From Nitrospira sp. (GTDB lineage: Bacteria > Nitrospirota > Nitrospiria > Nitrospirales > Nitrospiraceae): DNA of 64,000 nt. The stretch spans positions 248,227 to 312,226 of the forward strand of contig SWDM01000004.1 of the NCBI GenBank assembly GCA_005116835.1, written 5' to 3'. This document shows positions 19,748 to 20,941 of this stretch, piece by piece. The notes under the pieces are model-generated. The model did no database searches. It was not told the DNA's origin and saw nothing but the letters and a program-made list of their open reading frames with translations. Each line of letters opens with the position of its first letter. Position 1 is the stretch's first letter. Position numbers and translations under genes: made by a program.

Positions 19748-19759
19748 TGTATCTTGGTT

Positions 19760-19935
19760 TCGATGATATAGCTGGGTAACATGCTGAATCAAACCGGATG
19801 TGTCAGACCGAACTCCCTGAGGTCTGATGAGACCGTGCCGCAGCGCGGGTCGACACATCCCATTATCTGAGAGCCCGCACAGTCGCCTGGGCCGGATGAG
19901 CCCGCATCGCGCAAGGACGGGCCATGGAGAAGGAG
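19760..19935 (+). ncRNA. Candidate bridge RNA of the IS110 element
   Basis: In the IS110 leader, GGATGTGTC at 19796-19804 pairs perfectly with GACACATCC at 19852-19860, enclosing an internal loop. In that loop ACTCCCT (19812-19818) equals the left flank at 19741-19747. GCCGCAGCG (19837-19845) is the exact complement of the right flank CGCTGCGGC at 20907-20915. A second hairpin region follows with ACAGTCG at 19879-19885, which equals the right IS end plus junction (20902-20908), and with GGGCC/GAGCCC pairing, as expected for a donor loop. The outer limits of the RNA are guesses, and the right donor guide is unclear (CAAGG at 19912-19916 against CCTTG at the left end). Confidence 0.75.
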
Positions 19936-19942
19936 GAGTGGT

Positions 19943-20893
19943 ATGAGAGACACGCCAGTCTTTATCGGCATCGATATCTCGAAGGCCCGCTTGGATGTGG
20001 CACTGCGTCCGACGGGGAGTGCCTTTGCAGTGCCGTATGACGAGACGGGGATCACCACCGTTGTCCAACGCTTGAAGACTCTGTCGCCCGCCGGGATTGT
20101 CCTGGAAGCCACCGGGGGGTTGGAGGTGTTGCTCAGCGGGGCGCTGGCCATGGCCGGCTTGCCGGTGGCGGTCGTGAATCCCCGCCAAGTGCGAGACTTC
20201 GCTCGGGCCACCGGGCGCCTGGCCAAGACTGATGCCCTTGATGCCCAGCTGTTGGCTCAATTTGCCGAAGCGGTGCGGCCCGCGTGCCGCCCCCTGCCGG
20301 ATGCGAGTGCGCAGCAGTTGGCGGCGCTCATTACGCGACGACGCCAGCTCGTCGAGATGCTCACGGCGGAGAAAAATCGTCGAGGCAGTGCCCCGCGCGC
20401 GATGCGGAGCCAGATTCAACAGCACATCGACTGGCTCCAGCAGCACGTGGCGCAGCTCGATCAGGAGCTGACCACCGCGGTTCAGGCCAGCCCGATTTGG
20501 CGGGAACACGACGAGTTGTTGCAGAGTGTCCCAGGCATCGGTCCCGTCGTGACGCGGACGCTGCTGGCGGAATTGCCGGAGTTGGGGACCTTGTCCCGCC
20601 GACAAATCGCGGCCTTGGTCGGAGTCGCCCCGCTGAATCGGGACAGCGGCACCTTCCACGGGAAACGGACCGTCTGGGGTGGCCGCGCCACTGTGCGGGC
20701 GGCCCTCTATATGGGCGCATTGGTGGCGGCTCGTCATAATCGTGTCCTGAAAGCCTTTTACCAACGATTGCGTCAAGCCGGCAAAGCACCCAAGGTCGCA
20801 CTGACGGCCTGTATGCGTAAACTGCTGACGATGTTGAATGCCATGCTCAAACATCGGACCCCGTGGCGAGAGATCGCTGTTGCAGCCACTTGA
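19943..20893 (+). CDS. IS110-family transposase (bridge-RNA-guided recombinase)
   Basis: This is a 316-residue DEDD/serine recombinase. The N-terminal RuvC-like domain has D11 in [16 protein letters not shown]55 in VLEATGG, and D97/D100 in [11 protein letters not shown] central coiled coil spans about 120-180. The C-terminal Tnp-20 domain begins [20 protein letters not shown] near 195 and has the proposed nucleophile Ser235 in [14 protein letters not shown], then [20 protein letters not shown]. All key residues are present, so the enzyme may be active. AGGAGGAG precedes ATG. The length and domain order are standard for the IS110 subgroup. Confidence 0.95.
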
Positions 20894-20905
20894 CATTTAA
20901 GACAG

Positions 20906-20941
20906 TCGCTGCGGCCTTGCTGAAAACCGTTTTGAACAGCC
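20906..20941. repeat. Large palindromic repeat, copy 2, right half
   Basis: TCGCTGCGGCCTTGCTGAAA matches the same module of copy 1 (635-655) and, inverted, copy 3 (near 44160). Its outer arm closes the palindrome with the left half at 19658. It starts directly at the right IS boundary and ends 30 nt from the ureB stop. Confidence 0.82.

Follow-up and report, generated by a model that had tools for sequence, protein, structure and literature searches.

Did an RNA encoded by an IS110-type element select the site at which the element now lies? The question is raised by a locus in a 64,000-nt stretch of DNA (the window, meaning this stretch at its full length), where an intact IS110-group element (19748-20908, plus strand), bordered by two CT cores, interrupts a palindromic repeat of the ureC-ureB spacer. 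The first-pass annotation had noticed that the leader could fold into a bridge RNA with guides for both flanks, and had proposed an RNA-directed insertion by this same element. This proposal is supported by the fit between guides and flanks, by covariation among relatives and by an empty site. On this sequence evidence, we consider it highly probable (roughly 0.94) that the leader is a bridge RNA, as predicted, and that it likely directed the insertion here, since the site is matched on both sides by the two target guides.

The element begins just past the left core, its right end is ACAGTCG, and the coordinates of the 195-nt leader 5' of the recombinase gene check out. The recombinase scores 85.2 bits with PF01548 and 74 bits with PF02371; it combines a DEDD RuvC-like domain with a C-terminal domain carrying a conserved serine, and its length falls in the range of the IS110 family (about 300-460 aa). 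Among solved structures, the best match is ISCro4 (PDB 9t56, 150.6 bits), and IS621 (PDB 8wt6) is also matched. The residues D11, E55, D97, D100 and S235, listed earlier as retained, are present, and the same residue types are aligned in ISCro4. As in the IS110 group, the left non-coding end is longer than the right (195 nt vs 15 nt), the RNA lies upstream of the gene, and a short core is common to the target and both ends, with a scarless insertion: CT is found at 19746-19747 and at 20909-20910, and once in the empty site. The IS1111 group has the same recombinase family, but its guide RNA is predicted in the right end (available text of PMC11208160); that placing was not found here, with a leader of 195 nt and a right end of 15 nt. 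The features of the locus are collected in Table 1.

Table 1. Features of the element, its predicted bridge RNA and its insertion site, in coordinates of the window.
Feature	Positions	Strand	Basis
IS110-group element	19748..20908	+	borders from the empty orthologous site (L182); ends conserved in relatives
IS110 recombinase, 316 aa, intact frame	19943..20893	+	Pfam DEDD_Tnp_IS110 and Transposase_20; ISCro4 and IS621 chains
Left half of palindromic target repeat	19660..19747	+	94% to empty orthologous repeat
Core CT, right target GCGGC, right half of target repeat	20909..20938	+	empty site; repeat comparison
Target-binding stem-loop, predicted bridge RNA	19796..19860	+	covariation
Left target guide ACTCCCT	19812..19818	+	identical to t3-t9 of target
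Right target guide GCCGCAG	19837..19843	+	complement of core + right target CTGCGGC (20909-20915), 7/7
Predicted handshake guide CG	19844..19845	+	complementary to last two IS-end bases 20907-20908
Donor-binding stem-loop	19873..19922	+	covariation
Left donor guide ACAGTCG	19879..19885	+	identical to right IS end 20902-20908
Right donor guide GCAAG	19911..19915	+	fits core + left end CTTGT, one G.T pair
Predicted handshake base G	19916	+	fits t7 C
Predicted -10 box TATCTT	19750..19755	+	17 bp from -35 only in circle junction
Predicted -35 box TTGACA	20890..20895	+	overlaps recombinase stop codon

The borders were fixed by comparison with orthologous loci of other genomes. Nineteen such loci were fetched (L180-L198), and in all of them the flanks lie at most 224 bases apart, too close for an IS. 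An empty site is present at the orthologous place in one genome (G019, locus L182), where the ureC-ureB spacer holds an intact repeat with GGACTCCCTGCGGCC and a single CT. The left flank 19200-19747 aligns as a whole to 955-1502 of this locus, and the alignment of the right flank (20909 onwards) begins at 1501; the two pieces overlap by exactly two bases, CT, and the empty site reads GGACTCC-CT-GCGGCC. In the other 18 loci the alignment of the repeat part was incomplete or absent, and six of the 19 were read. Since the orthologous empty site reads in this way, the CG at 20907-20908 is the IS end and not flank; the right side of the target starts at the core CT (20909-20910), and on the left the target GGACTCC occupies 19739-19745 and the core 19746-19747. 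The first-pass annotation had the empty site join GGACTCCCT to CGCTGCGG. The left partner stands, but it is joined to GCGGCC, and the right partner was wrong because its CG is IS sequence.

The insertion site is a copy of a palindromic repeat of roughly 110 bp. Forms of the repeat parts at 19660-19747 and 20909-20938 also occur in the ureC-ureB spacer of L180, L182, L189 and L192, with inner sequences that differ among the four. From its presence at this spacer in other genomes, the repeat here seems older than the IS and seems to predate the insertion.

With the borders in place, the guides can be read against the site. The identity of ACTCCCT at 19812-19818 with 19741-19747 was confirmed (7/7), and it covers left target plus core. 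The second match reported earlier, GCCGCAGCG at 19837-19845, is indeed the exact reverse complement of 20907-20915, but not all of that segment is right flank: the nine nucleotides are made up of a 7-nt right guide and two nucleotides at the handshake position. Together, the element's own guides fit 12 of the 12 target positions t3-t14. The placing of the handshake guide follows the description of IS621 in the available text of PMC11208158.

The complementarity of 9 bp between GGATGTGTC (19796-19804) and GACACATCC (19852-19860) was likewise confirmed. This stem is supported by comparison of relatives, but it is missing from the minimum-energy fold of the single leader, whose stability is like that of shuffled sequences (z 0.05); the single-sequence fold was discarded as evidence for the stem, which it did not recover. 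When RNAalifold was applied to 32 aligned leaders (alignment A1), the 9-bp stem was obtained as the outer stem of the target loop, and a second stem-loop was obtained for the donor. The outer stem of the target loop pairs 19796-19804 with 19852-19860 and 19806-19809 with 19848-19851, and its inner stem pairs 19821-19824 with 19831-19834; in the donor loop the outer stem pairs 19873-19877 with 19918-19922 and the inner stem 19889-19892 with 19900-19903. The structure count covered four helices with 26 of the 29 consensus pairs, three pairs inside the donor loop being left out beforehand. In these helices 96.5% of the cells are paired, compared with 32-50% in slid versions, and in 17 of the 26 stem pairs both partners have changed. 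None of 500 shuffles reached any of five structure measures, a count that overstates the significance because the alignment used for it had also yielded the structure, and its sequences are related. Two conserved stem-loops with internal loops, the arrangement of a bridge RNA, were found in this structure drawn from the same alignment.

A search of 19400-21400 against Rfam (E up to 1) gave no bridge-RNA match. The sole listing, 5_ureB_sRNA in ureC, was rejected, its 23.7 bits being below the gathering score of 40. In the leader of L097, a long palindrome of about 90 nt, seen by eye, separates the left end from the target loop and gives the impression of a repeat inserted into the RNA gene.

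The second loop matches the joined ends of the element. The occurrence of ACAGTCG both in this loop and at the right IS end, pointed out in the first-pass annotation, was borne out (19879-19885 and 20902-20908), and GCAAG (19911-19915) supplies the other half. In the panel alignment, donor columns 139, 140 and 142 equal d3, d4 and d6 in 97-100%. In a donor scan of 1301 tests, columns unrelated to the guides reach scores equal to those of the guide columns, and the scan is not clean because the donor ends hardly vary. At the handshake positions, the base of the donor loop (DBL) forms a Watson-Crick pair with t7 in 25 of 32 leaders (28 counting G.U), with covariation at z 3.6, a level also reached by chance tests; the second handshake base of the target loop (TBL) shows no clear covariation with d6 across the panel.

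A promoter, TTGACA-17-TATCTT, is predicted to be assembled only in the circle junction of right and left ends (RE-LE). In uncontrolled counts over 49 rows, with L060 counted twice, TTGACA is found 6/6 at 17 or 18 bp in 23 rows and at 5/6 or better in 33, with fewer matching bases in the remaining 16. The box overlaps the stop codon, and this overlap could explain its conservation. TTGACA is kept in L015, L079, L080, L082 and L115, although the frame stops earlier there, and L119 has TTGACT; in L096, L099 and L136 it is not kept. In the proposed course of events, the recombinase would excise the element as a circle, which would set TTGACA of the right end 17 bp from TATCTT of the left end and so allow the RNA to be transcribed. 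The first loop would pair with the target, the left guide with the bottom strand and the right guide with the top strand, and the second loop would pair with the element's own joined ends; the recombinase would then exchange strands at the CT cores.

Could the element be a dead relic, with guides that fitted once and a copy that no longer moves? The own genome holds one copy; a second element, 68% alike, lies on contig C14. The 12-base target ACTCCCTGCGGC is found in it at 52 places with at most one mismatch (five exact), compared with 18 places for the same pattern read backwards, and 14 of the 52 share CTCCCTGCGGC. The single copy and the many unoccupied fitting sites speak for a relic, and they were also counted against the bridge-RNA reading. 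On the other side, the frame is open with its five catalytic residues, and the ends, donor guides and split promoter boxes are intact. In addition, the element is absent from the 19 orthologous loci, indicating that it arrived after the split from those genomes. We therefore regard a relic as improbable, with some weight left to it.

A panel of relatives was built from the best 80 of 104 named loci together with genus searches, which gave 75 distinct candidates including the window's own; 52 of them were kept, each having a left end and a frame of 290 aa or more, and 23 were dropped. The dropped ones include full-length elements whose left end is hidden by a contig end or masked bases (L016, L017, one L060 copy and L122) and the distant L146-L148 (about 35% identity), whose ends were not found by the search patterns. 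L100 has no clear right end, and its right-end assignment was left out. The best 7-base match of the left flank to the element's own leader averages 5.92, against 5.08 for the flanks of others (n=51), and the corresponding values for the right flank are 6.60 and 5.36 (n=47). Among 21 elements with dissimilar sites, the means are 6.10 vs 5.10 on the left and 6.57 vs 5.20 on the right. In both comparisons 0 of 20000 permutations reached the observed fit for each guide, counts that are not exact probabilities because the panel elements are related and share history. A fit of at least 6/7 is seen on the left flank in 36 of 51 elements (21% of pairings with others' flanks) and on the right flank in 43 of 47 (35% of such pairings). 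The left fit is poor (4/7) in L031, whose right fit is 7/7, and in L135 and L111; the right fit is poor (5/7) in L071, L072, L099 and L116. Of 20 family loci (L201-L220), two lack a right end and ten had been included in the panel before; the remaining eight gave 5.88 vs 5.14 on the left (138/20000 permutations) and 6.38 vs 5.57 on the right (72/20000).

A column scan of the 32 aligned leaders against target positions (3406 tests) located the signal. The top five tests are columns 92-96, complementary to t14-t10, which is the right guide, and the next five are columns 62-66, identical to t3-t7, which is the left guide. These ten guide-diagonal tests reach z 4.5-7.9, compared with z 4.1 for the highest-scoring of the remaining tests. 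The left-guide register of columns 62-66 with t3-t7 suits most elements and is shifted by one base in the groups of the window's element and of L050. The first loop matches both target strands and varies together with the target; the covariation between loops and flanks of homologous copies, which the first-pass annotation had proposed as a check, is strong in both the permutations and the scan. The recurrence of such matches in dozens of relatives makes it very likely that the element chooses its sites by RNA.

The target repeat is itself widespread. With the empty repeat as query, the own genome gave at least 41 matches, the window's left half included (40 of 126 candidates scored). Another copy of the right half of the repeat, CACTCGCTGCGGCCTTGCTGAACAGCC, lies at 629-668 and is one mismatch from the 12-base target. 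Repeat copies of the own genome and of L182 served for comparison with the flanks of 48 elements; six of these elements lie within this repeat family, where they occupy two positions. L039, L069 and L070 are inserted at CT before GCGGC (in L069 only the left flank matched the repeat, and the right flank of L070 was too short for testing); L028, L019 and L050 are inserted at GGTACGC-CT, with both flanks matched. The right flank of L031 holds a repeat copy in the opposite orientation, and the flanks of 41 of the 48 have no match to this repeat. The recombinase itself might recognise the palindromic repeat, the identity between loop and flank being a by-product or chance and the leader hairpin a 5' untranslated control element. 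The six insertions are compatible with this, as are many copies in genomes G147 and G163 that, by eye, lie in repeats. However, the six use two repeat positions, each fitting its own guides, the fit holds across the panel in spite of the 41 flanks without a repeat match, and two of the identical copies, L225 and L227, are placed (by eye) at sites that fit the guides but do not belong to the repeat. The guide-flank covariation in the column scan also speaks against recognition of the repeat by the protein, which we judge very improbable.

Copies with identical loops and different flanks provide a further view of site choice by the bridge RNA; in G147 and G163 one half-target is almost fixed and the other looser, in keeping with the RNA-directed insertion proposed in the first-pass annotation. 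G147 holds eight copies that are identical over 1131 bp between cores (a ninth match, stop-broken and 62% alike, was left out). Their right target TATTC is kept in 8/8, and left positions t1-t7 are kept in 2, 6, 6, 6, 6, 2 and 7 of 8. G163 holds ten copies identical over 1143 bp. Here the left target is TACGC in nine and TAAGC in one, with t3-t7 kept in 10, 10, 9, 10 and 10 of 10 and t1-t2 never, and the right positions are kept in 7, 8, 8, 3 and 7 of 10. In the eight positions beyond the target on each side, the most frequent base recurs in 3-7 of 8 copies for G147 and in 5-9 of 10 for G163, bases being partly shared because many sites lie in repeats; for this reason the test is weaker in G163, and that set is weak evidence by itself. 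Copying of the loop from the flank by gene conversion after insertion, so that fit follows insertion, is hardly credible: a left guide can change in a burst (5/9 against 5/110 in L039 vs L069), but the identical copies at 8 and 10 sites share bases given by one unchanged guide, which suits a guide preceding its sites.

Between L039 and L069, the five left-guide changes of this burst are accompanied by 0/9 in the right guide, the 110 positions being the rest of the bridge RNA (Fisher p = 0.00015 for the left-guide excess). In register, the left guides of the two fit their own flanks 7/7 and 6/7 and the other's flank 3/7 and 3/7; L070 has the same left guide as L039 and a flank fit of 6/7. In L050 vs L031, the right guide differs (5/5 own, 2/5 crossed) and the left guide is unchanged. 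A survey of 54 distinct elements, restricted to pairs at least 88% identical outside the guides with at least two changed bases in a guide, gave 12 pairs in four groups, a small sample chosen after looking. The change is confined to the left guide in L039 and L070 vs L069 and in L213 vs L086, L088, L089 and L214; it is mostly in the right guide in L050 vs L031, L018 and L060, with one left base differing for L018 and L060. Both halves changed in L116 vs L106, L111 and L135. We tentatively suggest, at clearly less than even odds, that IS110 bridge RNAs might retarget in nature one half-guide at a time, in bursts, with everything else in the RNA, the other half included, staying fixed, and that lineages might walk by half-site steps, among other places within palindromic repeat families. 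The misfit of the left flank of L031 to its unchanged left guide, and the fourth group with changes in both halves, run counter to this suggestion.

With this element the known IS110 bridge-RNA family gains a new member, and the mechanism is not new. Its tested features agree with the bridge-RNA model of IS621 and relatives as given in the available text of PMC11208160 and PMC11187229, including the preference for palindromic repeats. IS621 of E. coli, also of the IS110 group, has a homologous recombinase and a bridge RNA in the left end (available text of PMC11208160 and PMC11208158), and these accounts further describe a target loop before the donor loop, a CT core, insertion into palindromic repeats, and a promoter split over the RE-LE junction and handshake positions, the last two being predicted here. 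The two differ in target and guides, and the host here is likely Nitrospira. In addition, the right guide here fits t8-t14 (7 nt), compared with four right-guide pairs in the IS621 structure as described in the accessible part of PMC11208158; the present set adds candidate bridge recombinases with 7-nt right guides. ISCro4, the closest solved structure by sequence, with the same catalytic residue types, is likened by its recombinase only. In seekRNA work, the upstream non-coding region determines the guide RNA of IS110 types, and the seekRNAs of IS110 and IS1111 elements have short matches to both target strands (available text of PMC11187229); those elements and their targets differ from the present one. 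Judged by titles and abstract openings, none of the listed papers, among them the REP survey PMC12306157, which names Nitrospira, deals with this element or with IS110 insertion into Nitrospira repeats.

The locus offers sequence-only support, in a lineage far from E. coli, for IS110 site choice by a two-part guide RNA. It provides a natural panel made up of an element, its empty site and relatives that occupy two positions of the same repeat, and the genomes with 8 and 10 identical copies show the natural tolerance of each half-guide. The evolution of bridge-RNA targets becomes a directly testable question, and the tentative half-step retargeting is the part that specialists would find of interest.

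Several minor observations were made in the panel and at the locus. Two related IS110 elements, L060 and L018 (G008:C25), are arranged head to tail with starts about 1.2 kb apart, and their target guides are the same by eye. In L098, L088 and L091, the left flank ends in ACAAGAT-CT beside the left end TGTATC, making a palindrome (GATACAAGATCTTGTATC in L098); read as its reverse complement, the left end of the element is similar to the target. By Pfam names, the element of the window lies within 17922-21744 between the genes of urease alpha (17922-19649) and urease beta (20972-21433), both on the minus strand and opposite in orientation to the element, with urease gamma beyond; the insertion may affect co-transcription of the urease genes.
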